Assembly: GCA_037893245.1 (NCBI GenBank)
Contig: JBAIAA010000028.1
Coordinates: forward strand, 992,001 to 1,056,000
DNA length: 64,000 nt
From: Crossaster papposus
Taxonomy: Eukaryota > Echinodermata > Asteroidea > Velatida > Solasteridae
Reading direction: 5' to 3'
The notes under the pieces are model-generated. The model did not search any database, was not told where the DNA came from, and worked only from the letters and a program-made list of their open reading frames with translations. Shown in pieces: positions 1 through 64,000 of the stretch. Within the stretch, counting starts at the first letter, position 1; the number at the start of each line of letters is the position of its first letter. The position numbers and the translations under genes were made by a program.

Positions 1-38
1 GAATTGTCTGTTATTTTTAAACACTTTTCTCTTCGATT

Positions 39-52
39 ATTAATTAATTAAT
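39..52. repeat. AT-only palindrome in spacer
   Basis: ATTAATTAATTAAT is a perfect 14-bp palindrome. Left-type spacers often carry this form; most right-type spacers have ATTCATTAATTAAT with only a 10-bp palindrome, and some have ATTCATTAAATAATG, where it is broken. No function is shown. Confidence 0.6.
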
Positions 53-99
53 GTTCTTATTGGCACTAAATGATCGCTTCATATACGGGACATCCCCAG

Positions 100-111
100 T
101 AGCACAATCGG
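100..111 (+). promoter_or_regulatory. A box (internal Pol III promoter), copy 1
   Basis: TAGCACAATCGG covers tRNA positions 8-19 and fits the eukaryotic A-box pattern TRGYNNANNNGG. It is kept in nearly all copies. Exceptions I saw include AATAGG in the copy at 16727, CATTCGG in those at 48411 and 50346, and AATTGG in that at 59246. Confidence 0.8.
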
Positions 112-130
112 TTAGCGCGTTGTACTTATA

Positions 131-160
131 GACAGTGACCACACGCGTTGCTGTAGAGAG
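131..160 (+). other. tRNA intron, copy 1
   Basis: Thirty nucleotides separate A37 from A38. The fifth G from the 5' end and the CACGCGTTGCTG core are typical; variants elsewhere carry AAACGTGTTG, CACACGTTG or CGTTACTG cores and GTAGAGAG or GCAGAGAG ends. G at intron position -3 could pair with C32, the anticodon-intron pair known to be needed by the eukaryotic tRNA splicing endonuclease. TGTAG in the intron can also pair with TTATA of the anticodon loop (with two U-G pairs). Length is 30 nt in all copies I checked except those at 59246 and 61378 (31 nt). Confidence 0.8.
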
Positions 161-174
161 ATGCAAAGGTTGTG

Positions 175-185
175 AGTTCGAGCCT
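175..185 (+). promoter_or_regulatory. B box (internal Pol III promoter), copy 1
   Basis: AGTTCGAGCCT covers tRNA positions 52-62 against consensus GGTTCGANNCC. The invariant TTCGA core is present. The 30-nt intron puts A and B boxes about 75 nt apart, within the range TFIIIC tolerates. Confidence 0.8.
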
Positions 186-196
186 CACCTGGGGAA

Positions 197-285
197 TTGA
201 CTGATATTTTTAAACACTTTTCTCTTCGATTATTTATTAATTAATTTTCTTATTTGCACTAAATGATCGCCTCATATACTGGACA
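197..285 (+). repeat. Intergenic spacer of the unit, left type
   Basis: An 89-nt AT-rich spacer holds the trailer with two T-runs, CTCTTCGATTAT, an ATTAATTAAT-type palindrome, a TTATTTGCACTAAATGATCGCCTCATATAC-like tract (variable) and GGACA just before the next tRNA. The CATATAC stretch sits about 7-13 nt upstream of the next gene and is TATA-like, but it lies too close for a normal Pol III TATA box. I see no second gene or conserved reading frame in any spacer. Spacer types define the subfamilies: CTAAATG after TTGCA, TTGAA or TTGGCA on the left; GCAATAAATG and TTAATGGACTA on the right. Confidence 0.7.
207..211 (+). terminator. Pol III terminator, five T, copy 1
   Basis: TTTTT on the non-template strand starts 11 nt after the discriminator base, giving a short 3' trailer for La binding and RNase Z trimming. 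A second run, TTTT in CACTTTTCT, follows about 6 nt later and acts as a likely backup. This left-subfamily arrangement is the rule in the first 21 kb. Confidence 0.75.
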
Positions 286-389
286 TCCCCAGTAGCACAA
301 TCGGTTAGCGCGTTGTACTTATAGACAGTGACCAAACGTGTTGCTGCAGAGAGATGCAAAGGTTGTGAGTTCGAGCCTCACCTGGGGAA
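286..389 (+). tRNA. tRNA-Ile(UAU), left subfamily with AAACGTG/TGCAG intron (copy 2)
   Basis: Exons equal those of copy 1. The intron carries AAACGTGTTGCTGCAGAGAG: two of the changes from copy 1 fit decay of a CpG (ACGCG to ACGTG) and GTAG to GCAG. The GCAG change weakens possible intron pairing with A35. A five-T terminator follows at 400-404. This is one of two main intron types in the first 21 kb. Confidence 0.85.
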
Positions 390-864
390 TTGTCTGATAT
401 TTTTAAACACTTTTCTCTTCGATTATTAATTAATTAATGTTCTTATTTGCACTAAATGGTCGCCTCATATACGGGACATCCCCAGTAGCACAATCGGTTA
501 GCGCGTTGTACTTATAGACAGTGACCAAACGTGTTGCTGCAGAGAGATGCAAAGGTTGTGAGTTCGAGCCTCACCTGGGGAATTGTCTGATATTTTTAAA
601 CACTTTTCTCTTCGATTATTCATTAATTAATTTTCTTATTTGAACTAAATGATCGCCTCATACACGGGACATCCCCAGTAGCACAATCGGTTAGCGCGTT
701 GTACTTATAGACAGTGACCACACGCGTTGCTGCAGAGAGATGCAAAGGTTGTGAGTTCGAGCCTCACCTGGGGAATTGTCTGATATTTTTAAACACTTTT
801 CTCTTCGATTATTCATTAATAATTTTTTTTATTTGCACCAAATGATCGCCTCATATACGGGACA

Positions 865-968
865 TACCCAGTAGCACAATCGGTTACCGCTTTGTACTTA
901 TAGACAGTGACCAAACGTGTTGCTGCAGAGAGATGCAAAGGTTGTGAGTTCGAGCCTCACCTGGGGAA
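865..968 (+). pseudogene. tRNA-Ile(UAU) copy with broken acceptor and D stems (copy 5 class)
   Basis: It starts TACCCAG, so position 2 no longer pairs with G71. The D-stem 3' side reads CCGC and G26 is T, adding a C13-C22 clash to the array-wide A12-C23 mismatch. The anticodon and T arm are intact. The same trio of changes recurs at 2992, 4154, 6864, 10539, 11118, 13048 and 20981, so the damaged form was amplified. A stable tRNA is unlikely. Confidence 0.75.
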
Positions 969-1057
969 TTGTCGGATATTTTTTAACACTTTTCTCTTCG
1001 ATTATTAATTAATTAATGTTCTTATTGGCACTAAATGATCGCTTCATATACGGGATA

Positions 1058-1161
1058 TCCCCAGTAGCACAATCGGTTAGCGCGTTGTAATTATAGACAG
1101 TGACCACACGCGTTGCTGTAGAGAGATGCAAAGGTTGTGGGTTCGAGCCTCACCTGGGGAA
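1058..1161 (+). tRNA. tRNA-Ile(UAU) copy with A32 and consensus-like B box (copy 6)
   Basis: Position 32 is A instead of C, which removes the C32-G(-3) anticodon-intron pair. The same A32 is found at 7057, 11311 and 13241. Only this copy also has G52, making the B box GGTTCGAGCC, the closest to the Pol III consensus that I noticed. The first T-run is only TTT (1172-1174), so termination would rely on TTTT at 1183-1186. Confidence 0.7.
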
Positions 1162-1182
1162 TTGTCTGATATTTGTAAACAC

Positions 1183-1186
1183 TTTT
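1183..1186 (+). terminator. Backup Pol III terminator behind a weak first T-run
   Basis: The trailer reads GATATTTGTAAACACTTTTC. The first run has only three T, so this TTTT is the first run at the usual minimum. Similar loss of the first run follows the copies at 9377, 15561, 19047, 19433 and others. Confidence 0.55.
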
Positions 1187-1250
1187 CTCTTCGATTATTA
1201 ATTAATTAATGTTCTTATTGGCACTAAATGATCGCTTCATATACAGGACA

Positions 1251-1354
1251 TCCCGAGTAGCACAATCGGTTAGCGCGTTGTACTTATAGACAGTGACCAC
1301 ACGCGTTGCTGTAGAGAGATGTAAAGGTTGTGAGTTCGAGCCTCACCGGGGGAA
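1251..1354 (+). pseudogene. tRNA-Ile(UAU) copy with two acceptor mismatches (TCCCGAG class)
   Basis: The acceptor 5' strand TCCCGAG faces CGGGGGA, giving G5-G68 and A6-G67 mismatches side by side. The anticodon stem has TGTAA, a tolerable G-U. The same form sits at 7250, 11504, 13434 and 16920, marking block duplications. Acceptor stability and 5'/3' processing are probably impaired. Confidence 0.75.
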
Positions 1355-1636
1355 TTGTCTGATATTTTTAAACACTTTTCTCTTCGATTATTCATTAATT
1401 AATTTTCTTATTTGAACTAAATGATCGCTTCATATACGGGACATCCCCAGTAGCACAATCGGTTAGCGCGTTGTACTTATAGACAGTGACCACACGCGTT
1501 GCTGTAGAGAGATGCAAAGGTTGTGAGTTCGAGCCTCACCTGGGGAATTGTCTGATATTTTTAAACACTTTTCTCTTCGATTATTAATTAATTAATGCTC
1601 TTATTTGCACTAAATGATCGCCTCATATACTGGACA

Positions 1637-1740
1637 TCCCCAGTAGCACAATCGGTTAGCGCGTTGTACTTATAGACAGTGACCAAACGTGTTGCTGCAG
1701 AGAGAGGCAAAGGTTGTGAGATCGAGCCTCACCTGGGGAA
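1637..1740 (+). pseudogene. tRNA-Ile(UAU) copy with T54 lost (AGGCAA/ATCGAG class)
   Basis: The T loop reads ATCGAGC, so the near-universal T54 is A, damaging both the T54-A58 pair and the B box. Base 39 is G, breaking the pair with A31. It recurs at 8022, 12276, 14206 and 17692, each time preceded by an ATGCTCTTATTTGC spacer. Confidence 0.7.
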
Positions 1741-4700
1741 TTGTCTGATATTTTTAAACACTTTTCTCTTCGATTATTAATTAATTAATGTTCTTATTTG
1801 CACTAAATGATCGCCTCATATACGGGACATCCCCAGTAGCACAATCGGTTAGCGCGTTGTACTTATAGACAGTGACCACACGCGTTGCTGTAGAGAGATG
1901 CAAAGGTTGTGAGTTCGAGCCTCACCTGGGGAATTGTCTGATATTTTTAAACACTTTTCTCTTCGATTATTCATTAATTAATTTTTTTATTTGCACCAAA
2001 TGATCGCCTCATATACGGGACATCCCCAGTAGCACAATCGGTTACCGCTTTGTACTTATAGACAGTGACCAAACGTGTTGCTGCAGAGAGATGCAAAGGT
2101 TGTGAGTTCGAGCCTCACCTGGGGAATTGTCTGATATTTTTAAACACTTTTCTCTTCGATTATTAATTAATTAATGTTCTTATTGGCACTAAATGATCGC
2201 TTCATATACGGGACATCCCCAGTAGCACAATCGGTTAGCGCGTTGTACTTATAGACAGTGACCACACGCTTTGCTGTAGAGAGATGCAAAGGTTGTGAGT
2301 TCGAGCCTCACCTGGGGAATTGTCTGATATTTTTAAACACTTTTCTCTTCGATTATTCATTAATTAATTTTCTTATTTGAACTAAATGATCGCCTCATAC
2401 ACGGGACATCCCCAGTAGCACAATCGGTTAGCGCGTTGTACTTATAGACAGTGACCACACGCGTTGCTGTAGAGAGATGCAAAGGCTGTGAGTTCGAGCC
2501 TCACCTGGGGAATTGTCTGATATTTTTAAACACTTTTCTCTTCGATTATTAATTAATTAATGTTCTTATTTGCACTAAATGATCGCCTCATAATTATATG
2601 GGACATCCCCAGTAGCACAATCGGTTAGCGCGTTGTACTTATAGACAGTGACCAAACGTGTTGCTGCAGAGAGATGCAAAGGTTGTGAGTTCGAGCCTCA
2701 CCTGGGGAATTGTCTGATATTTTTAAACACTTTTCTCTTCGATTATTAATTAATTAATGTTCTTATTTGAACTAAATGATCGCCTCATACACGGGACATC
2801 CCCAGTAGCACAATCGGTTAGCGCGTTGTACTTATAGACAGTGACCACACGCGTTGCTGCAGAGAGATGCAAAGGTTGTGAGTTCGAGCCTCACCTGGGG
2901 AATTGTCTGATATTTTTAAACACTTTTCTCTTCGATTATTCATTAATTAATTTTTTTATTTGCACCAAATGATCGCCTCATATACGGGACATACCCAGTA
3001 GCACAATCGGTTACCGCTTTGTACTTATAGACAGTGACCAAACGTGTTGCTGCAGAGAGATGCAAAGGTTGTGAGTTCGAGCCTCACCTGGGGAATTGTC
3101 TGATATTTTTTAACACTTTTCTCTTCGATTATTAATTAATTAATGTTCTTATTGGCACTAAATGATCGCTTCATATACGGGATATCCCCAGTAGCACAAT
3201 CGGTTAGCGCGTTGTACTTATAGACAGTGACCACACGCGTTGCTGTAGAGAGATGCAAAGGTTGTGAGTTCGAGCCTCACCTGGGGAATTGTCTGATATT
3301 TTTAAACACTTTTCTCTTCGATTATTAATTAATTAATGTTCTTATTGGCACTAAATGATCGCTTCATATACGGGACATCCCCAGTAGCACAATCGGTTAG
3401 CGCGTTGTACTTATAGACAGTGACCACACGCGTTGCTGTAGAGAGATGCAAAGGCTGTGAGTTCGAGCCTCACCTGGGGAATTGTCTGATATTTTTAAAC
3501 ACTTTTCTCTTCGATTATTAATTAATTAATGTTCTTATTTGCACTAAATGATCGCCTCATAATTATATGGGACATCCCCAGTAGCACAATCGGTTAGCGC
3601 GTTGTACTTATAGACAGTGACCAAACGTGTTGCTGCAGAGAGATGCAAAGGTTGTGAGTTCGAGCCTCACCTGGGGAATTGTCTGATATTTTTAAACACT
3701 TTTCTCTTCGATTATTCATTAATTAATTTTCTTATTTGAACTAAATGATCGCCTCATACACGGGACATCCCCAGTAGCACAATCGGTTAGCGCGTTGTAC
3801 TTATAGACAGTGACCACACGCGTTGCTGCAGAGAGATGCAAAGGTTGTGAGTTCGAGCCTCACCTGGGGAATTGTCTGATATTTTTAAACACTTTTCTCT
3901 TCGATTATTCATTAATTAATTTTTTTATTTGCACCAAATGATCGCCTCATATACGGGACATCCCCAGTAGCACAATCGGTTAGCGCGTTGTACTTATAGA
4001 CAGTGACCACACGCGTTGCTGTAGAGAGATGCAAAGGTTGTGAGTTCGAGCCTCACCTGGGGAATTGTCTGATATTTTTAAACACTTTTCTCTTCGATTA
4101 TTAATTAATTAATGTTCTTATTGGCACTAAATGATCGCTTCATATACGGGACATACCCAGTAGCACAATCGGTTACCGCTTTGTACTTATAGACAGTGAC
4201 CAAACGTGTTGCTGCAGAGAGATGCAAAGGTTGTGAGTTCGAGCCTCACCTGGGGAATTGTCTGATATTTTTTAACACTTTTCTCTTCGATTATTAATTA
4301 ATTAATGTTCTTATTGGCACTAAATGATCGCTTCATATACGGGATATCCCCAGTAGCACAATCGGTTAGCGCGTTGTACTTATAGACAGTGACCACACGC
4401 GTTGCTGTAGAGAGATGCAAAGGTTGTGAGTTCGAGCCTCACCTGGGGAATTGTCTGATATTTTTAAACACTTTTCTCTTCGATTATTAATTAATTAATG
4501 TTCTTATTGGCACTAAATGATCGCTTCATATACGGGACATCCCCAGTAGCACAATCGGTTAGCGCGTTGTACTTATAGACAGTGACCACACGCGTTGCTG
4601 TAGAGAGATGCAAAGGCTGTGAGTTCGAGCCTCACCTGGGGAATTGTCTGATATTTTTAAACACTTTTCTCTTCGATTATTAATTAATTAATGTTCTTAT

Positions 4701-7700
4701 TTGCACTAAATGATCGCCTCATAATTATATGGGATATCCCCAGTAGCACAATCGGTTAGCGCGTTGTACTTATAGACAGTGACCAAACGTGTTGCTGCAG
4801 AGAGATGCAAAGGTTGTGAGTTCGAGCCTCACCTGGGGAATTGTCTGATATTTTTAAACACTTTTCTCTTCGATTATTCATTAATTAATGTTCTTATTTG
4901 CCCTAAATGATCGCCTCATACACGGGACATCCCCAGTAGCACAATCGGTTAGCGCGTTGTACTTATAGACAGTGACCACATGCGTTGCTGCAGAGAGATG
5001 CAAAGGTTGTGAGTTCGAACCTCACCTGGGGAATTGTCTGATATTTTTAAAAACTTTTCTCTTCGATTATTCATTAATTAATTTTCTTATTTGCACTAAA
5101 TGATCGCCTCATATACGGGACATCCCCAGTAGCACAATCGGTTAGCGCGTTGTATTTATAGACAGTGACCACACGCGTTGCTGTAGAGAGATGCAAAGGT
5201 TGTGAGTTCGAGCCTCACCTGGGGAATTGTCTGATATTTTTAAACACTTTTCTCTTCGATTATTAATTAATTAATGTTCTTATTGGCACTAAATGATCGC
5301 TTCATATACGGGACATCCCCAGTAGCACAATCGGTTAGCGCGTTGTACTTATAGACAGTGACCACACGCGTTGCTGTAGAGAGATGCAAAGGCTGTGAGT
5401 TCGAGCCTCACCTGGGGAATTGTCTGATATTTTTAAACACTTTTCTCTTCGATTATTAATTAATTAATGTTCTTATTTGCACTAAATGATCGCCTCATAA
5501 TTATATGGGACATCCCCAGTAGCACAATCGGTTAGCGCGTTGTACTTATAGACAGTGACCAAACGTGTTGCTGCAGAGAGATGCAAAGGTTGTGAGTTCG
5601 AGCCTCACCTGGGGAATTGTCTGATATTTTTAAACACTTTTCTCTTCGATTATTCATTAATTAATTTTCTTATTTGAACTAAATGATCGCCTCATACACG
5701 GGACATCCCCAGTAGCACAATCGGTTAGCGCGTTGTACTTATAGACAGTGACCACACGCGTTGCTGCAGAGAGATGCAAAGGTTGTGAGTTCGAGCCTCA
5801 CCTTGGGAATTGTCTGATATTTTTAAACACTTTTCTCTTCGATTATTCATTAATTAATTTTTTTATTTGCACCAAATGATCGCCTCATATACGGGACATC
5901 CCCAGTAGCACAATCGGTTAGCGCGTTGTACTTATAGACAGTGACCACACGCATTGCTGTAGAGAGATGCAAAGGTTGTGAGTTCGAGCCTCACCTGGGG
6001 AATTGTCTGATATTTTTAAACACTTTTCTCTTCGATTATTAATTAATTAATGTTCTTATTGGCACTAAATGATCGCTTCATATACGGGACATCCCCAGTA
6101 GCACAATCGGTTAGCGCGTTGTACTTATAGACAGTGACCACACGCGTTGCTGTAGAGAGATGCAAAGGTTGTGAGTTCGAGCCTCACCTGGGGAATTGAC
6201 TGATATTTTTAAACACTTTTCTCTTCGATTATTTATTAATTAATTTTCTTATTTGCACTAAATGATCGCCTCATATACTGGACATCCCCAGTAGCACAAT
6301 CGGTTAGCGCGTTGTACTTATAGACAGTGACCAAACGTGTTGCTGCAGAGAGATGCAAAGGTTGTGAGTTCGAGCCTCACCTGGGGAATTGTCTGATATT
6401 TTTAAACACTTTTCTCTTCGATTATTAATTAATTAATGTTCTTATTTGCACTAAATGGTCGCCTCATATACGGGACATCCCCAGTAGCACAATCGGTTAG
6501 CGCGTTGTACTTATAGACAGTGACCAAACGTGTTGCTGCAGAGAGATGCAAAGGTTGTGAGTTCGAGCCTCACCTGGGGAATTGTCTGATATTTTTAAAC
6601 ACTTTTCTCTTCGATTATTCATTAATTAATTTTCTTATTTGAACTAAATGATCGCCTCATACACGGGACATCCCCAGTAGCACAATCGGTTAGCGCGTTG
6701 TACTTATAGACAGTGACCACACGCGTTGCTGCAGAGAGATGCAAAGGTTGTGAGTTCGAGCCTCACCTGGGGAATTGTCTGATATTTTTAAACAATTTTC
6801 TCTTCGATTATTCATTAATTATTGTTTTTATTTGCACCAAATGATCGCCTCATATACGGGACATACCCAGTAGCACAATCGGTTACCGCTTTGTACTTAT
6901 AGACAGTGACCAAACGTGTTGCTGCAGAGAGATGCAAAGGTTGTGAGTTCGAGCCTCACCTGGGGAATTGTCGGATATTTTTTAACACTTTTCTCTTCGA
7001 TTATTAATTAATTAATGTTCTTATTGGCACTAAATGATCGCTTCATATACGGGATATCCCCAGTAGCACAATCGGTTAGCGCGTTGTAATTATAGACAGT
7101 GACCACACGCGTTGCTGTAGAGAGATGCAAAGGTTGTGAGTTCGAGCCTCACCTGGGGAATTGTCTGATATTTGTAAACACTTTTCTCTTCGATTATTAA
7201 TTAATTAATGTTCTTATTGGCACTAAATGATCGCTTCATATACAGGACATCCCGAGTAGCACAATCGGTTAGCGCGTTGTACTTATAGACAGTGACCACA
7301 CGCGTTGCTGTAGAGAGATGTAAAGGTTGTGAGTTCGAGCCTCACCGGGGGAATTGTCTGATATTTTTAAACACTTTTCTCTTCGATTATTCATTAATTA
7401 ATTTCCTTATTTGAACTAAATGATCGCTTCATATACGGGACATCCCCAGTAGCACAATCGGTTAGCGCGTTGTACTTATAGACAGTGACCACACGCGTTG
7501 CTGTAGAGAGATGCAAAGGTTGTGAGTTCGAGCCTCACCTGGGGAATTGTCTGATATTTTTAAACACTTTTCTCTTCGATTATTAATTAATTAATGTTCT
7601 TATTTGCACTAAATGATCGCCTCATATGTGGGACATCCCCAGTAGCACAATCGGTTAGCGCGTTGTACTTATAGACAGTGACCAAACGTGTTGCTGCAGA

Positions 7701-9762
7701 GAGATGCAAAGGTTGTGAGTTCGAGCCTCACCTGGGGAATTGTCTGATATTTTTAAACACTTTTCTCTTCGATTATTCATTAATTAATTTTCTTATTTGA
7801 ACTAAATGATCGCCTCATACATGGGACATCCCCAGTAGCACAATCGGTTAGCGCGTTGTACTTATAGACAGTGACCACACGCGTTGCTGTAGAGAGATGC
7901 AAAGGTTGTGAGTTCGAGCCTCACCTGGGGAATTGTCTGATATTTTTAAACACTTTTCTCTTCGATTATTAATTAATTAATGCTCTTATTTGCACTAAAT
8001 GATCGCCTCATATACTGGACATCCCCAGTAGCACAATCGGTTAGCGCGTTGTACTTATAGACAGTGACCAAACGTGTTGCTGCAGAGAGAGGCAAAGGTT
8101 GTGAGATCGAGCCTCACCTGGGGAATTGTCTGATATTTTTAAACACTTTTCTCTTCGATTATTAATTAATTAATGTTCTTATTTGCACTAAATGATCGCC
8201 TCATATATGGGACATCCCCAGTAGCACAATCGGTTAGCGCGTTGTACTTATAGACAGTGACCAAACGTGTTGCTGCAGAGAGATGCAAAGGTTGTGAGTT
8301 CGAGCCTCACCTGGGGAATTGTCTGATATTTTTTAACACTTTTCTCTTCGATTATTAATTAATTAATGTTCTTATTGGCACTAAATGATCGCTTCATATA
8401 CGGGATATCCCCAGTAGCACAATCGGTTAGCGCGTTGTACTTATAGACAGTGACCACACGCGTTGCTGTAGAGTGATGCAAAGGTTGTGAGTTCGAGCCT
8501 CACCTGGGGAATTGTCTGATATTTTTAAACACTTTTCTCTTCGATTATTAATTAATTAATGTTCTTATTGGCACTAAATGATCGCTTCATATACGGGACA
8601 TCCCCAGTAGCACAATCGGTTAGCGCGTTGTACTTATAGACAGTGACCACACGCGTTGCTGTAGAGAGATGCAAAGGTTGTGAGTTCGAGCCTCACCTGG
8701 GGAATTGTCTGATATTTTTAAACACTTTTCTCTTCGATTATTAATTAATTAATGTTCTTATTTGCACTAAATGATCGCCTCATAATTATATGGGACATCC
8801 CCAGTAGCACAATCGGTTAGCGCGTTGTACTTATAGACAGTGACCAAACGTGTTGCTGCAGAGAGATGCAAAGGTTGTGAGTTCGAGCCTCACCTGGGGA
8901 ATTGTCTGATATTTTTTAACACTTTTCTCTTCGATTATTCATTAATTAATTTTCTTATTTGAACTAAATGATCGCCTCATACACGGGACATCCCCAGTAG
9001 CACAATCGGTTAGCGCGTTGTACTTATAGACAGTGACCACACGCGTTGCTGCAGAGAGATGCAAAGGTTGTGAGTTCGAGCCTCACCTGGGGAATTGTCT
9101 GATATTTTTAAACACTTTTCTCTTCGATTATTCATTAATTAATTTTTTTATTTGCACCAAATGATCGCCTCATATACGGGACATCCCCAGTAGCACAATC
9201 GGTTAGCGCGTTGTACTTATAGACAGTGACCACACGCGTTGCTGTAGAGAGATGCAAAGGTTGTGAGTTCGAGCCTCACCTGGGGAATTGTCTGATATTT
9301 TTAAACACTTTTCTCTTCGATTATTAATTAATTAATGTTCTTATTGGCACTAAATGATCGCTTCATATACGGGACATCCCCAGTAGCACAATCGGTTAGC
9401 GCGTTGTACTTATAGACAGTGACCACACGCGTTGCTGTAGAGAGATGCAAAGGTTGTGAGTTCGAGCCTCACCTGGGGAATTGTCTGATATTGTTAAACA
9501 CTTTTCTCTTCGATTATTAATTAATTAATGTTCTTATTTGCACTAAATGATCGCCTCATATACGGGACATCCCCAGTAGCACAATCGGTTAGCGCGTTGT
9601 ACTTATAGACAGTGACCAAACGTGTTGCTGCAGAGAGATGCAAAGGTTGTGAGTTCGAGCCTCAACTGGGGAATTGTCTGATATTTTTAAACACTTTTCT
9701 CTTTGATTATTAATTAATTAATGTTCTTATTTGCACTAAATGATCGCCTCATATATGGGACA

Positions 9763-9866
9763 TCCCCAGTAGCACAATCGGTTAGCGCGTTGTACTTATA
9801 GACAGTGACCACACGCGTTGCTGTAGAGAGATGCAAAGGTTGTGAGTTGGAGCCTCACCTGGGGAA
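9763..9866 (+). pseudogene. tRNA-Ile(UAU) copy with C56 changed to G
   Basis: The T loop reads TTGGAGC. C56 makes the tertiary G19-C56 pair and is the most critical B-box base for TFIIIC binding, so both transcription and folding should suffer. The same change is in the copy at 16144. Confidence 0.7.
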
Positions 9867-10345
9867 TTGTCTGATATTTTTAAACACTTTTCTCTTCGAT
9901 TATTAATTAATTAATGTTCTTATTTGCACTAAATGATCGCCTCATAATTATATGGGACATCCCCAGTAGCACAATCGGTTAGCGCTTTGTACTTATAGAC
10001 AGTGACCAAACGTGTTGCTGCAGAGAGATGCAAAGGTTGTGAGTTCGAGCCTCACCTGGGGAATTGTCGGATATTTTTTAACACTTTTCTCTTCGATTAT
10101 TCATTAATTAATTTTCTTATTTGAACTAAATGATCGCCTCATACACGGGACATCCCCAGTAGCACAATCGGTTAGCGCGTTGTACTTATAGACAGTGACC
10201 AAACGTGTTGCTGCAGAGAGATGCAAAGGTTGTGAGTTCGAGCCTCAACTGGGGAATTGTCTGATATTTTTAAACACTTTTCTCTTCGATTATTCATTAA
10301 TTAATTTTCTTATTTGAACTAAATGATCGCCTCATACACGGGACA

Positions 10346-10449
10346 TCCCCAGTAGCACAATCGGTTAGCGCGTTGTACTTAAAGACAGTGACCACACGCG
10401 TTGCTGCAGAGAGATGCAAAGGTTGTGAGTTCGAGCCTCACCTGGGGAA
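10346..10449 (+). tRNA. Anticodon variant TAA in a tRNA-Ile body (copy 54)
   Basis: The anticodon at 10380-10382 reads TAA in place of TAT (T36 to A); the nominal decoding would be UUA leucine. Acceptor, T arm, intron and first T-run are otherwise intact. The neighbouring duplicate 579 bp downstream (10925) still has TAT, so the change arose after the 3-unit duplication. If it were transcribed and charged with isoleucine it would mistranslate UUA; whether IleRS would accept it is doubtful because U36 is an isoleucine identity element. Confidence 0.65.
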
Positions 10450-11028
10450 TTGTCTGATATTTTTAAACACTTTTCTCTTCGATTATTCATTAATTATTTT
10501 TTTTATTTGCACCAAATGATCGCCTCATATACGGGACATACCCAGTAGCACAATCGGTTACCGCTTTGTACTTATAGACAGTGACCAAACGTGTTGCTGC
10601 AGAGAGATGCAAAGGTTGTGAGTTCGAGCCTCACCTGGGGAATTGTCGGATATTTTTTAACACTTTTCTCTTCGATTATTCATTAATTAATTTTCTTATT
10701 TGAACTAAATGATCGCCTCATACACGGGACATCCCCAGTAGCACAATCGGTTAGCGCGTTGTACTTATAGACAGTGACCAAACGTGTTGCTGCAGAGAGA
10801 TGCAAAGGTTGTGAGTTCGAGCCTCAACTGGGGAATTGTCTGATATTTTTAAACACTTTTCTCTTCGATTATTCATTAATTAATTTTCTTATTTGAACTA
10901 AATGATCGCCTCATACACGGGACATCCCCAGTAGCACAATCGGTTAGCGCGTTGTACTTATAGACAGTGACCACACGCGTTGCTGCAGAGAGATGCAAAG
11001 GTTGTGAGTTCGAGCCTCACCTGGGGAA

Positions 11029-21860: not shown

Positions 21861-21870
21861 TTGTCTGATA

Positions 21871-51801: not shown

Positions 51802-54800
51802 TTGTCTGATATTTTGTAACACTTTTCTCTTCGATTATTAATTAATTAATTGTATTATTAATGGACTAAATGATCGCCTCATACACGGGACATCCCCAGT
51901 AGCACAATCGGTTAGCGCGTTGTACTTATAGACAGTGACCACACGCGTTACTGTAGAGAGATGCAAAGGTTGTGAGTTCGAGCCTCACCTGGGGAATTGT
52001 CTGATATTTTTTTACACTTTTCTCTTCGATTATTCATTAATTAATTTTCTTATTTGCACTAAATGATCGCCTCATATACGGGACATCCCCAGTAGCACAA
52101 TCGGTTAGCGCGTTGTACTTATAGACAGTGACCACACGCGTTACTGCATAGAGATGCAAAGGTTGTGAGTTCGAGCCTCACCTGTGGAATTGTCTGATAT
52201 TTTTAAACACTTTTCTCTTCGATTATTCATTAATTAATGTTCATATTAATGGACTAAATGATCGCCTCATACACGGACATCCCCAGTAGCACAATCGGTT
52301 AGCGCGTTGTACTTATAGACAGTGACCACACGCGTTGCTGTAGAGAGATGCAAAGGTTGTGAGTTCGAGCCTCACCTGTGGAATTGTCTGATATTTGTTA
52401 ACACTTTTCTCTTCGATTATTCATTCATTAATGTTCTTATTTGCAATAAATGATCGCCTCATATACGGGACATCCCCAGTAGCACAATCGGTTAGAGCGT
52501 TGTACTTATAGACAGTGACCACACGCGTTACTGTAGAGAGATGCAAAGGTTGTGAGTTCGAGCCTCACCTGGGGAATTGTCTGATATTTTTTATCACTTT
52601 TCTCTTCGATTATTCATTAAATAATGTTCTTATTTGCACTAAATGATCGCCTCATATACGGGACATCCCCAGTAGCACAATCGGTTAGCGCGTTGTACTT
52701 ATAGACAGTGACCACACGCGTTGCTGTAGAGAGATGCAAAGGTTGTGAGTTCGAGCCTCACCTGGGGAATTGTCTGATATTTTTTAACAATTTTCTCTTC
52801 GATTATTCATTAATTAATGTTCTGATTTGCACTAAATGATCGCCTCATATACGGGACATCCCCAGTAGCACAATCGGTTAGCGCGTTGTACTTATAGACA
52901 GTGACCACACGCGTTGCTGTAGAGAGATGCAAAGGTTGTGAGTTCGAGCCTCACCTGGGGAATTGTCTGATATTTTTTAACAATTTTCTCTTCGATTATT
53001 CATTAATTAATTTTCTTATTTGTACTAAATGATCGCCTCATATACAGGACATCCCCAGTAGCACAATCGGTTAGCGCGTTGTACTTATAGACAGTGACCA
53101 CACGCGTTGCTGTAGAGAGATGCAAAGGTTGTGAGTTCGAGCCTTACCTGGGGAATTGTCTGATATTTTTTAACACTTTTCTCTTCGATTATTCATTAAT
53201 TAATGTTCATATTAATGGACTAAATGATCGCCTCATACACGGACATCCCCAGTAGCACAATCGGTTAGCGCGTTGTACTTATAGACAGTGACCACACGCG
53301 TTGCTGTAGAGAGATGCAAAGGTTGTGAGTTCGAGCCTCACCTGGGGAATTGTCTGATATTTTTTAACACTTTTCTCTTCGATTATTCATTAATTAATTT
53401 TCTTATTTGCACTAAATGATCGCCTCATATACGGGACATCCCCAGTAGCACAATCGGTTAGCGCGTTGTACTTATAGACAGTGACCACACGCGTTACTGT
53501 AGAGAGATGCAAAGGTTGTGAGTCCGAGCCTCACCTGGGGAATTGTCTGATATTTTGTAACACTTTTCTCTTCGATTATTAATTAATTAATTGTATTATT
53601 AATGGACTAAATGATCGCCTCATACACGGGACATCCCCAGTAGCACAATCGGTTAGCGCGTTGTACTTATAGACAGTGACCACACGCGTTACTGTAGAGA
53701 GATGCAAAGGTTGTGAGTTCGAGCCTCACCTGGGGAATTGTCTGATATTTTTTTACACTTTTCTCTTCGATTATTCATTAATTAATTTTCTTATTTGCAC
53801 TAAATGATCGCCTCATATACGGGACATCCCCAGTAGCACAATCGGTTAGCGCGTTGTACTTATAGACAGTGACCACACGCGTTACTGCATAGAGATGCAA
53901 AGGTTGTGAGTTCGAGCCTCACCTGTGGAATTGTCTGATATTTTTAAACACTTTTCTCTTCGATTATTCATTAATTAATGTTCATATTAATGGACTAAAT
54001 GATCGCCTCATGCACGGACATCCCCAGTAGCACAATCGGTTAGCGCGTTGTACTTATAGACAGTGACCACACGCGTTGCTGTAGAGAGATGCAAAGGTTG
54101 TGAGTTCGAGCCTCACCTGGGGAATTGTCTGATATTTGTTAACACTTTTCTCTTCGATTATTCATTAATTAATGTTCTTATTTGCAATAAATGATCGCCT
54201 CATATACGGGACATCCCCAGTAGCACAATCGGTTAGAGCGTTGTACTTATAGACAGTGACCACACGCGTTACTGTAGAGAGATGCAAAGGTTGTGAGTTC
54301 GAGCCTCACCTGGGGAATTGTCTGATATTTTTTATCACTTTTCTCTTCGATTATTCATTAAATAATGTTCTTATTTGCACTAAATGATCGCCTCATATAC
54401 GGGACATCCCCAGTAGCACAATCGGTTAGCGCGTTGTACTTATAGACAGTGACCACACGCGTTGCTGTAGAGAGATGCAAAGGTTGTGAGTTCGAGCCTC
54501 ACCTGGGGAATTGTCTGATATTTTTTAACAATTTTCTCTTCGATTATTCATTAATTAATGTTCTGATTTGCACTAAATGATCGCCTAATATACGGGACAT
54601 CCCCAGTAGCACAATCGGTTAGCGCGTTGTACTTATAGACAGTGACCACACGCGTTGCTGTAGAGAGATGCAAAGGTTGTGAGTTCGAGCCTCACCTGGG
54701 GAATTGTCTGATATTTTTTAACAATTTTCTCTTCGATTATTCATTAATTAATGTTCTGATTTGCACTAAATGATCACCTCACATACGGGACATCCCCAGT

Positions 54801-57800
54801 AGCACAATCGGTTAGCGCGTTGTACTTATAGACAGTGACCACACGCGTTACTGTAGAGAGATGCAAAGGTTGTGAGTCCGAGCCTCACCTGGGGAATTGT
54901 CTGATATTTTGTAACACTTTTCTTTTCGATTATTAATTAATTAATTGTATTATTAATGGACTAAATGATCGCCTCATACACGGGACATCCCCAGTAGCAC
55001 AATCGGTTAGCGCGTTGTACTTATAGACAGTGACCACACGCGTTACTGTAGAGAGATGCAAAGGTTGTGAGTTCGAGCCTCACCTGGGGAATTGTCTGAT
55101 ATTTTTTTACACTTTTCTCTTCGATTATTCATTAATTAATTTTCTTATTTGCACTAAATGATCGCCTCATATACGGGACATCCCCAGTAGCACAATCGGT
55201 TAGCGCGTTGTACTTATAGACAGTGACCACACGCGTTACTGCAGAGAGATGCAAAGGTTGTGAGTTCGAGCCGCACCTGGGGAATTGTCTGATATTTTTA
55301 AACACTTTTCTCTTCGATTATTCATTAATTAATGTTCATATTAATGGACTAAATGATCGCCTCATACACGGACATCCCCAGTAGCACAATCGGTTAGCGC
55401 GTTGTACTTATAGACAGTGACCACACGCGTTGCTGTAGAGAGATGCAAAGGTTGTGAGTTCGAGCCTCACCTGGGGAATTGTCTGATATTTTTTAAGACT
55501 TTTCTATTCGATTATTCATTAATTAATTTTCTTATTTGCACTAAATGATCGCCTCATATACGGGCCATACCCAGTAGCACAATCGGTTAGCGCGTTGTAC
55601 TTATAGACAGTGACCACACGCGTTACTGTAGAGAGATGCAAAGGTTGTGAGTTCGAGCATCACCTGGGGAATTGTCTGATATTTTTAAACACTTTTCTCT
55701 TCGATTATTCATTAATTAATTTTCTTATTTGCAATAAATGATCGCCTCATATACGGGACATCCCCAGTAGCACAATCGGTTAGAGCGTTGTACTTATAGA
55801 CAGTGACCACACGCGTTACTGTAGAGAGATGCAAAGGTTGTGAGTTCGAGCCTCACCTGGGGAATTGTCTGATATTTTTTATCACTTTTCTCTTCGATTA
55901 TTCATTAAATAATGTTCTTATTTGCACTAAATGATCGCCTCATATACGGGACATCCCCAGTAGCACAATCGGTTAGCGCGTTGTACTTATAGACAGTGAC
56001 CACACGCGTTGCTGCAGAGAGATGCAAAGGTTGTGAGTTCGAGCCTCACCTGGGGAATTGTCTGATATTTTTTAACAATTTTCTCTTCGATTATTCATTA
56101 ATTAATGTTCTGATTTGCACTAAATGATCGCCTCATATACGGGACATCCCCAGTAGCACAATCGGTTAGCGCGTTGTACTTATAGACAGTGACCACACGC
56201 GTTACTGCATAGAGATGCAAAGGTTGTGAGTCCGAGCCTCACCTGGGGAATTGTCTGATATTTTGTAACACTTTTCTCTTCGATTATTAATTAATTAATT
56301 GTATTATTAATGGACTAAATGATCGCCTCATATACGGGACATCCCCAGTAGCACAATCGGTTAGAGCGTTGTACTTATAGACAGTGACCACACGCGTTAC
56401 TGTAGAGAGATGCAAAGGTTGTGAGTTCGAGCCTCACCTGGGGAATTGTCTGATATTTTTTTACACTTTTCTCTTCGATTATTCATTAGTTAATTTTCTT
56501 ATTTGCACTAAATGATCGACTCATATACGGGACATCCCCAGTAGCACAATCGGTTAGCGCGTTGTACTTATAGACAGTGACCACACGCGTTACTGCAGAG
56601 AGATGCAAAGGTTGTGAGTTCGAGCCTCACCTGGGGAATTGTCTGATATTTTTAAACACTTTTCTCTTCGATTATTCATTAATTAATGTTCATATTAATG
56701 GACTAAATGATCGCCTCATACACGGACATCCCCAGTAGCACAATCGGTTAGCGCGTTGTACTTATAGACAGTGACCACACGCGTTGCTGCAGAGAGATGC
56801 AAAGGTTGTGAGTTCGAGCCTCACCTGGGGAATTGTCTGATATTTTTTAACACTTTTCTCTTCGATTATTCATTAATTAATGTTCTGATTTGCACTAAAT
56901 GATCGCCTCATATACGGGACATCCCCAGTAGCACAATCGGTTAGCGCGTTGTACTTATAGACAGTGACCACACGCGTTACTGTAGAGAGATGCAAAGGTT
57001 GTGAGTCCGAGCCTCACCTGGGGAATTGTCTGATATTTTGTAACACTTTTCTCTTCGATTATTAATTAATTAATTGTATTATTAATGGACTAAATGATCG
57101 CCTCATACACGGGACATCCCCAGTAGCACAATCGGTTAGCGCGTTGTACTTATAGACAGTGACCACACGCGTTACTGTAGAGAGATACAAAGGTTGTGAG
57201 TTCGAGCCTCACCTGGGGAATTGTCTGATATTTATTTACACTTTTCTCTTCGATTATTCATTAATTAATTATCTTATTTGCACTAAATGATCGCCTCATA
57301 TACGGGACATCCCCAGTAGCACAATCGGTTAGCGCGTTGTACTTATAGACAGTGACCACACGCGTTACTGCAGAGAGATGCAAAGGTTGTGAGTTCGAGC
57401 CTCACCTGGGGAATTGTCTGATATTTTTAAACACTTTTCTCTTCGATTATTCATTAATTAATGTTCATATTAATGGACTAAATGATCGCCTCATACACGG
57501 ACATCCCCAGTAGCACAATCGGTTAGCGCGTTGTACTTATAGACAGTGACCACACGCGTTGCTGTAGAGAGATGCAAAGGTTGTGAGTTCGAGCCTCACC
57601 TGGGGAATTGTCTGATATTTTTTAAGACTTTTCTCTTCGATTATTCATTAATTAATTTTCTTATTTGCACTAAATGATCGCCTCATATACGGGCCATCCC
57701 CAGTAGCACAATCGGTTAGCGCGTTGTACTTATAGACAGTGACCACACGCGTTACTGTAGAGAGATGCAAAGGTTGTGAGTTCGAGCATCACCTGGGGAA

Positions 57801-58381
57801 TTGTCTGATAATTTTAAACAATTTTCTCTTCGATTATTCATTAATTAATTTTTTTATTTGCAATAAATGATCGCCTCATATACGGGACATCCCCATTAGC
57901 ACAATCGGTTAGAGCGTTGTACTTATAGACAGTGACCACACGCGTTACTGTAGAGAGATGCAAAGGTTGTGAGTTCGAGCCTCACCTGGGGAATTGTCTG
58001 ATATTTTTTAACAATTTTCTCCTCGATTATTCATTAATTAATGTTCTGATTTGCACTAAATGATCGCCTCATATACGGGACATCCCCAGTAGCACAATCG
58101 GTTAGCGCGTTGTACTTATAGACAGTGACCACACGCGTTACTGCATGGAGATGCAAAGGTTGTGAGTCCGAGCCTCACCTGGGGAATTGTCTGATATTTT
58201 GTAACACTTTTCTCTTCGATTATTAATTAATTAATTGTATTATTAATGGACTAAATGATCGCCTAATACACGGGACATCCCCAGTAGCACAATCGGTTAG
58301 CGCGTTGTACTTATAGACAGTGACCACACGCGTTACTGTAGAGAGATGCAAAGGTTGTGAGTTCGAGCCTCACCTGGGGAA
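51802..58381 (+). repeat. Array block 12: tRNA copies 269-302
   Basis: tRNA starts: 51893, 52086, 52280, 52473, 52666, 52859, 53052, 53246, 53439, 53634, 53827, 54021, 54214, 54407, 54600, 54793, 54988, 55181, 55375, 55568, 55761, 55954, 56147, 56342, 56535, 56729, 56922, 57117, 57310, 57504, 57697, 57890, 58083, 58278. A 9-unit repeat (offset 1741 bp) joins 52086 to 53827, both with intron end GCATAGAG and acceptor CTGTGGA. A recurring run is a T-loop TCCGAGC copy, then a 195-bp ATTGTATTATTAATGG spacer, then a TTTTTTT trailer (seven T). Confidence 0.9.
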
Positions 58382-59245
58382 TTGTCTGATATTTTTTAAC
58401 AATTTTCTCTTCGATTATTCATTAATTAATGTTCTTATTTGCAATAAATGATCGCCTCATATACGGGACATCCCCAGTAGCACAATCGGTTAGCGCGTTA
58501 TACTTATAGACAGTGACCACACGCGTTACTGCATAGAGATGCAAAGGTTGTGAGTCCGAGCCTCACCTGGGGAATTGTCTGATATTTTGTAACACTTTTT
58601 TCTTCGATTATTAATTAATTAATTGTATTATTAATGGACTAAATGATCGCCTCATACACGGGACATCCCCAGTAGCACAATCGGTTAGCGCGTTGTACTT
58701 ATAGACAGTGACCACACGCGTTACTGTAGAGAGATGCAAAGGTTGTGAGTTCGAGCCTCACCTGGGGAATTGTCTGATATTTTTTAACAATTTTCTCTTC
58801 GATTATTCATTAATTAATGTTCTTATTTGCAATAAATGATCGCCTCATATACGGGACATCCCCAGTAGCACAATCGGTTAGCGCGTTGTACTTATAGACA
58901 GTGACCACACGCGTTACTGTAGAGAGATGCAAAGGTTGTGAGTTCGAGCCTCACCTGGGGAATTGTCTGATATTTTTTAACACTTTTCTCTTCGATTATT
59001 CATTAATTAATGTTCATATTAATGGACTAAATGATCGCCTCATACACGGACATCCCCAGTAGCACAATCGGTTAGCGCGTTGTACTTATAGACAGTGACC
59101 ACACGCGTTGCTGTAGAGAGATGCAAAGGTTGTGAGTTCGAGCCTCACCTGGGGAATTGTCTGATATTTTTTAAGACTTTTCTCTTCGATTATTCATTAA
59201 TTAATTTTCTTATTTGCACTAAATGATCGCCTCATATACGAGCCA

Positions 59246-59350
59246 TCCCCAGTAGCACAATTGGTTAGCGCGTTGTACTTATAGACAGTGACCACACGCG
59301 TTACTGATAGAGAGATGCAAAGGTTGTGAGTTCGAGCATCACCTGGGGAA
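59246..59350 (+). pseudogene. tRNA-Ile(UAU) copy with 31-nt intron and C61 lost (copy 307)
   Basis: The intron has one extra base (CTGATAGAGAG) making the body 105 nt. The T arm reads TTCGAGC-ATCAC, so G53-C61, normally invariant and part of the B box, is broken. The same pair of changes is at 61378-61482; the C61 change alone is at 55568 and 57697. Confidence 0.7.
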
Positions 59351-61377
59351 TTGTCTGATATTTTTAAACAATTTTCTCTTCGATTATTCATTAATTAATG
59401 TTCTTATTTGCAATAAATGATCGCCTCATATACGGGACATCCCCAGTAGCACAATCGGTTAGAGCGTTGTACTTATAGACAGTGACCACACGCGTTACTG
59501 TAGAGAGATGCAAAGGTTGTGAGTTCGAGCCTCACCTGGGGAATTGTCTGATATTCTTTATCACTTTTCTCTTCGATTATTCATTAAATAATGTTCTTAT
59601 TTGCACTAAATGTTCGCCTCATATACGGGACATCCCAAGTAGCACAATCGGTTAGCGCGTTGTACTTATAGACAGTGACCACACGCGTTGCTGCAGAGAG
59701 ATGCAAAGGTTGTGAGTTCGAGCCTCACCTGGGGAATTGTCTGATATTTTTTAACAATTTTCTCTTCGATTATTCATTAATTAATGTTCTGATTTGCACT
59801 AAATGATCGCCTCATATACGGGACATCCCCAGTAGCACAATCGGTTAGCGCGTTGTACTTATAGACAGTGACCACACGCGTTACTGCAAAGAGATGCAAA
59901 GGTTGTGAGTCCGAGCCTCACCTGGGGAATTGTCTGATATTTTGTAACACTTTTCTCTTCGATTATTAATTAATTAATTGTATTATTAATGGACTAAATG
60001 ATCGCCTCATACACGGGACATCCCCAGTAGCACAATCGGTTAGCGCGTTGTACTTATAGACAGTGACCACACGCGTTACTGTAGAGAGATGCAAAGGTTG
60101 TGAGTTCGAGCCTCACCTGGGGAATTGTCTGATATTTTTTTACACTTTTCTCTTCGATTATTCATTAATTAATTTTCTTATTTGCACTAAATGATCGCCT
60201 CATATACGGGACATCCCCAGTAGCACAATCGGTTAGCGCGTTGTACTTATAGACAGTGACCACACGCGTTACTGCAGAGAGATGCAAAGGTTGTGAGTTC
60301 GAGCCTCACCTGGGAAATTGTCTGATATTTTTAAACACTTTTCCCTTCGATTATTCATTAATTAATGTTCATATTAATGGACTAAATGATCGCCTCATAC
60401 ACGGACATCCCCAGTAGCACAATCGGTTAGCGCGTTGTACTTATAGGCAGTGACCACACGCGTTGCTGTAGAGAGATGCAAAGGTTGTGAGTTCGAGCCT
60501 TACCTGGGGAATTGTCTGATATTTTGTAACACTTTTTTCTTCGATTATTAATTAATTAATTGTATTATTAATGGACTAAATGATCGCCTCATACACGGGA
60601 CATCCCCAGTAGCACAATCGGTTAGCGCGTTATACTTATAGACAGTGACCACACGCGTTACTGCATAGAGATGCAAAGGTTGTGAGTCCGAGCCTCACCT
60701 GGGGAATTGTCTGATATTTTGTAACACTTTTTTCTTCGATTATTAATTAATTAATTGTATTATTAATGGACTAAATGATCGCCTCATACACGGGACATCC
60801 CCAGTAGCACAATCGGTTAGCGCGTTGTACTTATAGACAGTGACCACACGCGTTACTGTAGAGAGATGCAAAGGTTGTGAGTTCGAGCCTCACCTGGGGA
60901 ATTGTCTGATATTTTTTAACAATTTTCTCTTCGATTATTCATTAATTAATGTTCTTATTTGCAATAAATGATCGCCTCATATACGGGACATCCCCAGTAG
61001 CACAATCGGTTAGCGCGTTGTACTTATAGACAGTGACCACACGCGTTACTGTAGAGAGATGCAAAGGTTGTGAGTTCGAGCCTCACCTGGGGAATTGTCT
61101 GATATTTTTTAACACTTTTCTCTTCGATTATTCATTAATTAATGTTCATATTAATGGACTAAATGATCGCCTCATACACGGACATCCCCAGTAGCACAAT
61201 CGGTTAGCGCGTTGTACTTATAGACAGTGACCACACGCGTTGCTGTAGAGAGATGCAAAGGTTGTGAGTTCGAGCCTCACCTGGGGAATTGTCTGATATT
61301 TTTTAAGACTTTTCTCTTCGATTATTCATTAATTAATTTTCTTATTTGCACTAAATGCTCGCCTCATATACGGGCCA

Positions 61378-61482
61378 TCCCCAGTAGCACAATCGGTTAG
61401 CGCGTTGTACTTATAGACAGTGACCACACGCGTTACTGATAGAGAGATGCAAAGGTTGTGAGTTCGAGCATCACCTGGGGAA
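61378..61482 (+). pseudogene. tRNA-Ile(UAU) copy with 31-nt intron, duplicate of that at 59246
   Basis: Offset is exactly 2132 bp (11 units) from its partner. It differs in a few bases, for example CGGGCCA against CGAGCCA before the 5' end and ATCGG against ATTGG in the D loop. Confidence 0.7.
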
Positions 61483-63426
61483 TTGTCTGATATTTTTAAA
61501 CCATTTTCTCTTCGATTATTCATTAATTAATGTTCTTATTTGCAATAAATGATCGCCTCATATACGGGACATCCCCAGTAGCACAATCGGTTAGAGCGTT
61601 GTACTTATAGACAGTGACCACACGCGTTACTGTAGAGAGATGCAAAGGTTGTGAGTTCGAGCCTCACCTGGGGAATTGTCTGATATTCTTTATCACTTTT
61701 CTCTTCGATTATTCATTAAATAATGTTCTTATTTGCACTAAATGTTCGCCTCATATACGGGACATCCCAAGTAGCACAATCGGTTAGCGCGTTGTACTTA
61801 TAGACAGTGACCACACGCGTTGCTGCAGAGAGATGCAAAGGTTGTGAGTTCGAGCCTCACCTGGGGAATTGTCTGATATTTTTTAACAATTTTCTCTTCG
61901 ATTATTCATTAATTAATGTTCTGATTTGCACTAAATGATCGCCTCATATACGGGACATCCCCAGTAGCACAATCGGTTAGCGCGTTGTACTTATAGACAG
62001 TGACCACACGCGTTACTGCAAAGAGATGCAAAGGTTGTGAGTCCGAGCCTCACCTGGGGAATTGTCTGATATTTTGTAACACTTTTCTCTTCGATTATTA
62101 ATTAATTAATTGTATTATTAATGGACTAAATGATCGCCTCATACACGGGACATCCCCAGTAGCACAATCGGTTAGCGCGTTGTACTTATAGACAGTGACC
62201 ACACGCGTTACTGTAGAGAGATGCAAAGGTTGTGAGTTCGAGCCTCACCTGGGGAATTGTCTGATATTTTTTTACACTTTTCTCTTCGATTATTCATTAA
62301 TTAATTTTCTTATTTGCACTAAATGATCGCCTCATATACGGGACATCCCCAGTAGCACAATCGGTTAGCGCGTTGTACTTATAGACAGTGACCACACGCG
62401 TTACTGCAGAGAGATGCAAAGGTTGTGAGTTCGAGCCTCACCTGGGAAATTGTCTGATATTTTTAAACACTTTTCCCTTCGATTATTCATTAATTAATGT
62501 TCATATTAATGGACTAAATGATCGCCTCATACACGGACATCCCCAGTAGCACAATCGGTTAGCGCGTTGTACTTATAGGCAGTGACCACACGCGTTGCTG
62601 TAGAGAGATGCAAAGGTTGTGAGTTCGAGCCTTACCTGGGGAATTTTCTGATATTTGTTAACACTTTTCTCTTCGATTATTCATTAATTAATGTTCATAT
62701 TAATGGACTAAATGATCGCCTCATACACGGACATCCCCAGTAGCACAATCGGTTAGCGCGTTGTACTTATAGACAGTGACCACACGCGTTGCTGTAGAAA
62801 GATGCAAAGGTTGTGAGTTCGAACCTCACCTGGGGAATTGTCTGATATTTTTAAACAATTTTCTCTTCGATTATTCATTAATTAATGTTCTTATTTGCAA
62901 TAAATGATCGCCTCATATACGGGACATCCCCAGTAGCACAATCGGTTAGAGCGTTGTACTTATAGACAGTGACCACACGCGTTACTGTAGAGAGATGCAA
63001 AGGTTGTGAGTTCGAGCCTCACCTGGGGAATTGTCTGATATTCTTTATCACTTTTCTCTTCGATTATTCATTAAATAATGTTCTTATTTGCACTAAATGT
63101 TCGCCTCATATACGGGACATCCCAAGTAGCACAATCGGTTAGCGCGTTGTACTTATAGACAGTGACCACACGCGTTGCTGCAGAGAGATGCAAAGGTTGT
63201 GAGTTCGAGCCTCACCTGGGGAATTGTCTGATATTTTTTAACAATTTTCTCTTCGATTATTCATTAATTAATGTTCTGATTTGCACTAAATGATCGCCTC
63301 ATATACGGGACATCCCCAGTAGCACAATCGGTTAGCGCGTTGTACTTATAGACAGTGACCACACGCGTTACTGCAAAGAGATGCAAAGGTTGTGAGTCCG
63401 AGCCTCACCTGGGGAATTGTCTGATA

Positions 63427-63430
63427 TTTT
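63427..63430 (+). terminator. Pol III terminator, four T plus backup
   Basis: TTTTG follows the T55-to-C copy at 63313; a second TTTT lies at 63438-63441. Four T is the usual lower limit for efficient Pol III release, so some read-through to the second run is expected. Confidence 0.55.
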
Positions 63431-63894
63431 GTAACACTTTTCTCTTCGATTATTAATTAATTAATTGTATTATTAATGGACTAAATGATCGCCTCATACA
63501 CGGGACATCCCCAGTAGCACAATCGGTTAGCGCGTTGTACTTATAGACAGTGACCACACGCGTTACTGTAGAGAGATGCAAAGGTTGTGAGTTCGAGCCT
63601 CACCTGGGGAATTGTCTGATATTTTTTTACACTTTTCTCTTCGATTATTCATTAATTAATTTTCTTATTTGCACTAAATGATCGCCTCATATACGGGACA
63701 TCCCCAGTAGCACAATCGGTTAGCGCGTTGTACTTATAGACAGTGACCACACGCGTTACTGCAGAGAGATGCAAAGGTTGTGAGTTCGAGCCTCACCTGG
63801 GAAATTGTCTGATATTTTTAAACACTTTTCCCTTCGATTATTCATTAATTAATGTTCATATTAATGGACTAAATGATCGCCTCATACACGGACA

Positions 63895-63998
63895 TCCCCA
63901 GTAGCACAATCGGTTAGCGCGTTGTACTTATAGGCAGTGACCACACGCGTTGCTGTAGAGAGATGCAAAGGTTGTGAGTTCGAGCCTTACCTGGGGAA
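63895..63998 (+). tRNA. tRNA-Ile(UAU), last copy in window (copy 331)
   Basis: The acceptor pairs fully. The T stem reads CTTAC, a tolerable G51-U63, and the intron begins GGCAG. Its trailer and terminator lie beyond the window. Confidence 0.75.
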
Positions 63999-64000
63999 TT

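Follow-up and report, generated by a model that had tools for sequence, protein, structure and literature searches.

Tandem repeats of oocyte-type transfer RNA (tRNA) and 5S genes in Xenopus, RNA polymerase III (Pol III) arrays that are thought to supply oocytes, are a possible parallel to the locus considered in this study, a stretch of 64,000 nucleotides from the sea star Crossaster papposus (hereafter the window; positions 992,001–1,056,000 of contig JBAIAA010000028.1, or C28, in an assembly of 1.02 Gb and 1,841 contigs), filled with head-to-tail units that most likely are intron-bearing tRNA-Ile(UAU) genes. The zebrafish genome has 10,471 tRNA loci (PMC9858662), and on the long arm of its chromosome 4, similarly to the sea star locus, a single block holds a very large number of tRNA genes, for which a maternal role was put forward as an untested suggestion (PMC11075544). 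More than 17,000 tRNA genes and pseudogenes are known in Nematostella, and clusters of fifty and more members occur in Nematostella and teleosts (PMC2888827). Tandem tRNA arrays, comparable to the one described here, constitute much of the gene set of Entamoeba histolytica (PMC2652664). On a smaller scale, local tandem tRNA repeats are represented by the tRNA-Cys and Ser/Tyr (SYY) clusters of Arabidopsis, the latter of which is reactivated in root tips, but silent in most tissues (PMC10701932, PMC12308677), and the human tRNA variable number tandem repeat at 1q23.3 resembles the sea star case in that its copy number varies between alleles (PMC4041453). Among the papers listed in searches of the open-licence PMC literature, none dealt with sea star tRNA arrays.

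Here, we show that the window is a slice of a much longer array, in which the exons of the repeated unit lack common variants and the intron varies like the spacer. We estimate at roughly 65% the probability that the units are genuine tRNA genes, currently constrained at the level of the array.

Identity of the Repeated Units

A single Tandem Repeats Finder row covers positions 1–64,000 of the window (period 193 bp, 331.0 copies, 95% matches, 0% indels), and blastn with one 104-nt gene as the query yields 331 copies, 331 out of 331 being full length. This confirms the claim of a preliminary description of the window, that intron-bearing tRNA-Ile(UAU) genes follow each other head to tail at intervals of 193 bp, at least 331 times. 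The same description saw no other content, which holds within the window, but not beyond it, where the fetched part of the array has three interruptions. The array continues past both window edges: 187 kb of fetched array contain 919 copies (917 full length), and all 920 blastn matches in the fetched region are on the forward strand. Copies were anchored with blastn; an earlier fuzzy-pattern anchor, which yielded 658 copies compared to 919, was dropped.

The anatomy of the unit can be followed on an example gene at positions 286–389 (forward strand), predicted by ARAGORN and scored 49.5 bits by Rfam, whose 104 nt include the intron and the discriminator base. The 5′ exon of 38 nt (286–323) ends with the anticodon TAT and A37 and is followed, one base after the anticodon, by a 30-nt intron (324–353; ARAGORN notation i(39,30)); the 3′ exon (354–389, by ARAGORN and Rfam) comprises the T arm, the acceptor strand, and the discriminator A. 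Both internal Pol III promoter elements fit the consensus, the A box at 293–304 and the B box at 368–378, and their patterns are found in 901 and 870 out of 919 array copies, respectively. An AT-rich spacer of about 90 bp (390–478 in the example) separates each gene from the next and includes a T run at 400–404, a candidate Pol III terminator by its sequence. A run of at least four T within 60 nt after the gene is present in 919 out of 919 copies, and in 760 out of 919 the run starts 11 nt past the last gene base. Unit length is 193 bp in 644 and 195 bp in 186 out of 914 units, the variation coming mainly from the spacer (insertions in 248 out of 914 units, compared to four in the intron and three in the exons).

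With introns allowed, ARAGORN predicts 324 genes in the window, all on the forward strand. Ile(tat) genes with introns of 30–31 nt account for 295 of these, and the remaining 29 are called as Lys (14), Tyr (11), Leu (2), Val (1), and Ser (1), via another placement of the intron or anticodon. With introns disallowed, no genes are predicted at positions 1–6,000. The reversed, uncomplemented window yields no tRNAs, which rules out chance or a bare repeat as the source of the predictions. Covariance scores that reject nearly all copies, named in advance as grounds for abandoning the tRNA assignment, did not appear: the Rfam model RF00005 gives 301 window matches above its curated cut-off (29 bits), with about 30 out of 331 copies falling below it, and among the matches listed (150 of 301) all are on the forward strand and score 50.7 to 49.4 bits. 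The triplet TAT occupies the anticodon place in 328 out of 331 window copies and 906 out of 919 array copies, and 237 out of 331 window copies combine TAT, both promoter boxes, and the T run with no more than one mismatch in the stems. When the entire precursor was folded, no cloverleaf resulted (z-score −1.13; 26 out of 200 shuffles fold as well), and no support is drawn from this fold. Judging by the cloverleaf score, the placement of the anticodon and intron, the A and B boxes, and the T run, the array units are most likely intron-bearing tRNA-Ile(UAU) genes.

Constraint on the Exons

The distribution of variation was analyzed in an alignment of 914 units (463 distinct), from which five out of 919 copies, four preceding an odd spacing and the last copy, were omitted. 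Mean diversity is 0.021 in the exons, 0.063 in the intron, approximately three times the exon value, and 0.070 in the spacer. Variants present in more than 5% of units occur at none of 73 exon sites, six out of 30 intron sites, and 16 out of 90 spacer sites (Fisher p = 4e-4 for exons vs intron and 6e-5 for exons vs spacer). None of 20,000 site permutations reaches the observed diversity ratio. Since rare variants are present in exons and common ones are absent, new mutations enter the exons, but do not become common. The intron, located between the two exons, varies like the spacer, which argues against conversion tracts or a local mutation rate as the cause of low exon diversity.

The constraint extends beyond the promoter. 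When the A and B boxes are set aside, 50 exon sites remain, and none of them has a variant above 5% (p = 3e-4), which disfavors constraint on the promoter only and favors selection on the RNA product. Thus, among the three options offered by the preliminary description, an extraordinary dosage of the tRNA, a Pol III-dense chromatin domain, or a tRNA-derived satellite, the exon-specific constraint points to working tRNA genes rather than to a free satellite. Most likely, purifying selection acting at the level of the array, together with concerted evolution, maintains the copies.

Several observations weigh against this reading. The simple intactness criteria listed above are all passed in only 648 out of 919 array copies, and the commonest mature sequence is carried by 421 out of 919, the other 498 differing from it (145 distinct sequences in total). 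Rfam scores are low, about 50 bits compared to 78 bits for the Lys genes of the same genome. The consensus D stem has an A·C mismatch (gene positions 12 and 24), and one or more mismatches in this stem are found in 918 out of 919 copies; a lone gene found elsewhere in the genome, on contig C243, has the consensus exon too. We identified 54 stem-breaking exon variants, in 269 copies (counted as cells), the commonest of them in 22 copies, and found no compensatory double changes in stems among the array copies. The observed diversity ratio is also reached by 11 out of 192 rotations of the exon mask. Finally, variants seen in fewer than five copies number 64 at the 73 exon sites, 20 at the 30 intron sites, and 50 at the 90 spacer sites; rare variants are not depleted in exons, and single copies look nearly neutral.

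The last observation is what one would expect under relaxed present selection, and it lends some weight to the best surviving alternative, namely, that the exons were kept clean in a smaller functional array or gene family, which then recently expanded by unequal exchange past what is needed, leaving the majority of copies to drift at present as a satellite derived from tRNA. Decayed copies among the initiator-Met-like repeats of the same genome, described below, fit this scenario as well. On the other hand, variants at frequencies of 2–5% are also fewer in exons (nine at 73 sites, compared to 29 at the 120 other sites), and such a graded loss with frequency fits continuing weak selection. Overall, we regard past function with present excess as unlikely, noting that it overlaps with continuing weak selection and that the data presented here do not separate the two.

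Much less probable is a neutral satellite, whose tRNA origin would be incidental to selfish tandem spread. The period is near a nucleosome repeat length, as we infer, and local duplication is strong, exact repeats of at least 1 kb making up 34% of the fetched array. However, a neutral satellite is expected to be equally constrained along the whole unit, and this expectation fails (variants above 5% at none of the 73 exon sites vs 22 out of 120 other sites): constraint is seen in exons only, with the equally transcribed intron serving as a neutral control.

It is also improbable, if anything slightly more so, that the units are kept as docking sites of TFIIIC and Pol III, with a role in insulation, boundary formation, or nuclear positioning, the RNA being a by-product. 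The A box indeed has the lowest diversity among exon segments (0.009), but the constraint on exon sites outside the boxes is not accounted for by docking, and the T run and trailer vary to the same degree as the spacer does.

Extent and Homogenization of the Array

The first gene starts at position 969,249 of C28, adjoining unlike sequence. Sampled pieces of the contig contain units at 1,196.0–1,196.6 kb and none at 1,198.0–1,198.6 kb, which places the array end at approximately 1,196.6–1,198.0 kb and gives a length of about 227 kb, the last 41 kb being sampled in pieces only. The window understated the scope of the array, whose length is about 3.5 times that of the window. A shorter allele probably exists, and the genome has other tRNA arrays. 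Allowing for interruptions, the whole array on C28 would have approximately 1,130 copies, which is an estimate, not a count.

The preliminary description would have yielded to evidence that a few units had been expanded by the assembler. Within the assembly sequence this finds no support: no exact internal repeat in the 187 kb is longer than 3,570 bp, so the array does not consist of a handful of long segments repeated over and over, and units in 10-kb bins deviate from the consensus at a mean of 5.2 to 7.8 sites. Both results weigh against inflation. Exact repeats up to this length connect nearby blocks, and the identity of random pairs of units is 0.948. There is no single dominant higher-order repeat, and only weak peaks are seen at lags of 11 and 18 units. 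In this one species, the locus is a concertedly evolving tandem array, with alike head-to-tail units and local block duplications.

A transposon-like insert in the array at about 1,128.0–1,133.2 kb has inverted terminal repeats, is flanked on either side by AAAT, and contains an 803-aa reading frame matching DUF7869. Inserts at 1,124.6 kb and 1,142.9 kb differ in length and have both ends in common, as if one had been copied along with a unit and then shortened or lengthened.

The Second Array and the Lone Gene

An exact 38-mer of the gene occurs in the genome 750 times in the forward and 447 times in the reverse orientation, the fetched part of C28 accounting for 644 of the forward matches. 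On contig C830, copies in the reverse orientation lie between about 219.7 and 349 kb and are interrupted at least once, at 241 kb. Ten pieces sampled at 351–411.5 kb of this contig all match C28 from 968 to 899 kb in the reverse order, with identity of 76–100%, although one match has only 47 bases and one lies in a local repeat. Further out, a piece at 421 kb has a weak C28 match in the other direction, and a piece at 441 kb has no match in the fetched C28 sequence, its counterpart probably being outside the fetched part. With its flank colinear on one side of the array, C830 most likely represents the other haplotype, on which the array is shorter. It would have approximately 640 copies, assuming the same share of copies with the 38-mer as on C28.

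Three patterns designed to avoid most array copies match 19, 19, and 14 places, and an earlier pattern, one; such patterns detect only genes fitting them, and diverged genes would be missed. Outside C28 and C830, only one out of these 52 places remains, the lone gene on C243. Every exon base of this gene equals the array consensus. Its intron, in turn, has 32 nt and several differences from the array intron, and its flanks are unlike the array spacer, barring the edge of the gene itself and short chance-like matches. Exons that stay identical next to such a changed intron and flanks support the reading of the units as real tRNA genes. The array does not fit a tRNA-type short interspersed nuclear element, expected as dispersed insertions of a tRNA head with a body and a tail, as the copies are tandem with a fixed unit and only one of the 52 places is outside the two contigs.

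Both haplotypes seem to be retained in the assembly at this locus, and one of its contigs is bacterial-looking. Even so, an artifact, with a short array enlarged during assembly, is the least credible explanation, given the many distinct units, the short longest repeat, unlike sequence past both ends of the C28 array, and the existence of two arrays with different lengths and a flank colinear on one side.

Other tRNA Arrays and Side Contigs

The genome also has tRNA-Lys(UUU) arrays, at about 19–486 kb of contig C479 (units of about 572–577 bp; Rfam matches from 24 to 486 kb) and at about 1,269–1,376 kb of contig C424 (unit of about 770 bp). An exact 61-mer of tRNA-Lys(UUU) has 565 forward and 32 reverse matches genome-wide, and a 29-mer from the initiator-Met anticodon arm has 10,162 exact matches (4,071 + 6,091); both totals may span two haplotypes and are not per haploid genome. 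A tandem tRNA-Met-like repeat on contig C13 has a spacing of mostly about 801 bp, and in its 1,701-bp segment at 271,150–272,850 Rfam accepts six tRNA copies (32 to 50 bits) and ARAGORN two, several copies looking decayed. A genome-wide Rfam scan scored 63 out of 213,984 candidates and gives no total tRNA count.

The mitochondrial contig (16,330 bp) points to a sea star: conserved COX1 residues are read sensibly with the echinoderm code (AAA as Asn, ATA as Ile), and the tRNAs preceding COX1 are in the sea star order. For the mtDNA of Crossaster papposus, an arrangement common to sea stars is reported.

Contig C8 (5,301,754 bp) is bacterial-looking. It encodes a 675-aa COX1-family oxidase (by Pfam), to which the nearest oxidase found, in beta- and gammaproteobacteria, is 71% identical, and a neighboring frame that is presumably CyoA-like. 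The contig belongs to a symbiont or is a contaminant.

Discussion

Under the preferred reading, that of real tRNA genes with constraint at the array level, a single intron-bearing tRNA-Ile(UAU) gene would have been amplified head to tail together with about 90 bp of flanking DNA, and unequal exchange and local block duplication would homogenize the units in the course of concerted evolution. By the anatomy of the units and general knowledge of tRNA genes, Pol III would transcribe at least some of them from the internal A and B boxes, the intron would be spliced out to produce one mature tRNA, and the latter would decode AUA. Exon variants would arise as elsewhere in the unit and stay rare, as arrays rich in defective units would be selected against.

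The reason behind the copy number is a matter of guesswork; a demand for abundant tRNA during oogenesis and in early embryos is the one that we judge the likeliest, while holding it tentatively. More speculative, and doubtful at present, is an extension to the whole lineage: several tRNAs might be supplied from isoacceptor-specific mega-arrays evolving in concert like ribosomal DNA. Specifically in eggs and embryos, these arrays would then be the chief source of translation capacity, and the somatic set would be made up of single genes dispersed in the genome. The counts to be considered here are about 1,100 for Ile-UAU on one haplotype, hundreds for Lys-UUU, and thousands for initiator Met.

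Real genes may be lost when extreme numbers of tRNAs are filtered out as repeats; for example, a survey of sea cucumbers set aside exceptional counts of Cys and Tyr tRNAs on codon-usage grounds (PMC8580430). The array described here offers a clean natural experiment on the maintenance of function in a thousand redundant tRNA genes: the 30-nt intron of each gene, flanked by two constrained exons, serves as an internal, near-neutral control, and two probable alleles differ in copy number. It also bears on whether tRNA supply tracks gene number in eggs and embryos.

Compared to known systems, the sea star array differs from the Xenopus tRNA repeats, which have longer, multi-tRNA units. The arrays of Entamoeba histolytica are from a protist and comprise 25 types of units, with up to five tRNA genes in each and short tandem repeats between genes (PMC2652664). 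In Arabidopsis, the Cys cluster has four genes and the SYY unit consists of Ser and Tyr genes (PMC10701932, PMC12308677), and the human 1q23.3 repeat has a 7.3-kb unit and 9–43 copies per allele (PMC4041453). Zebrafish clusters mostly mix isoacceptors (PMC2888827), whereas the sea star array has one isoacceptor and one short unit. To the statement of the preliminary description that known tRNA clusters are usually mixed or have much longer units, it should be added that homogeneous pairs occur in Drosophila, Tetrahymena, and Monosiga, and that clustering, same-strand pairs, and isoacceptor-homogeneous clusters are known (PMC2888827). In the passages of that survey considered here, we noticed no single row in which an intron-bearing isoacceptor is repeated about a thousand times (PMC2888827). 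Thus, with homogeneous and very large tRNA clusters already known, the array on C28 is a new extreme rather than a new kind.

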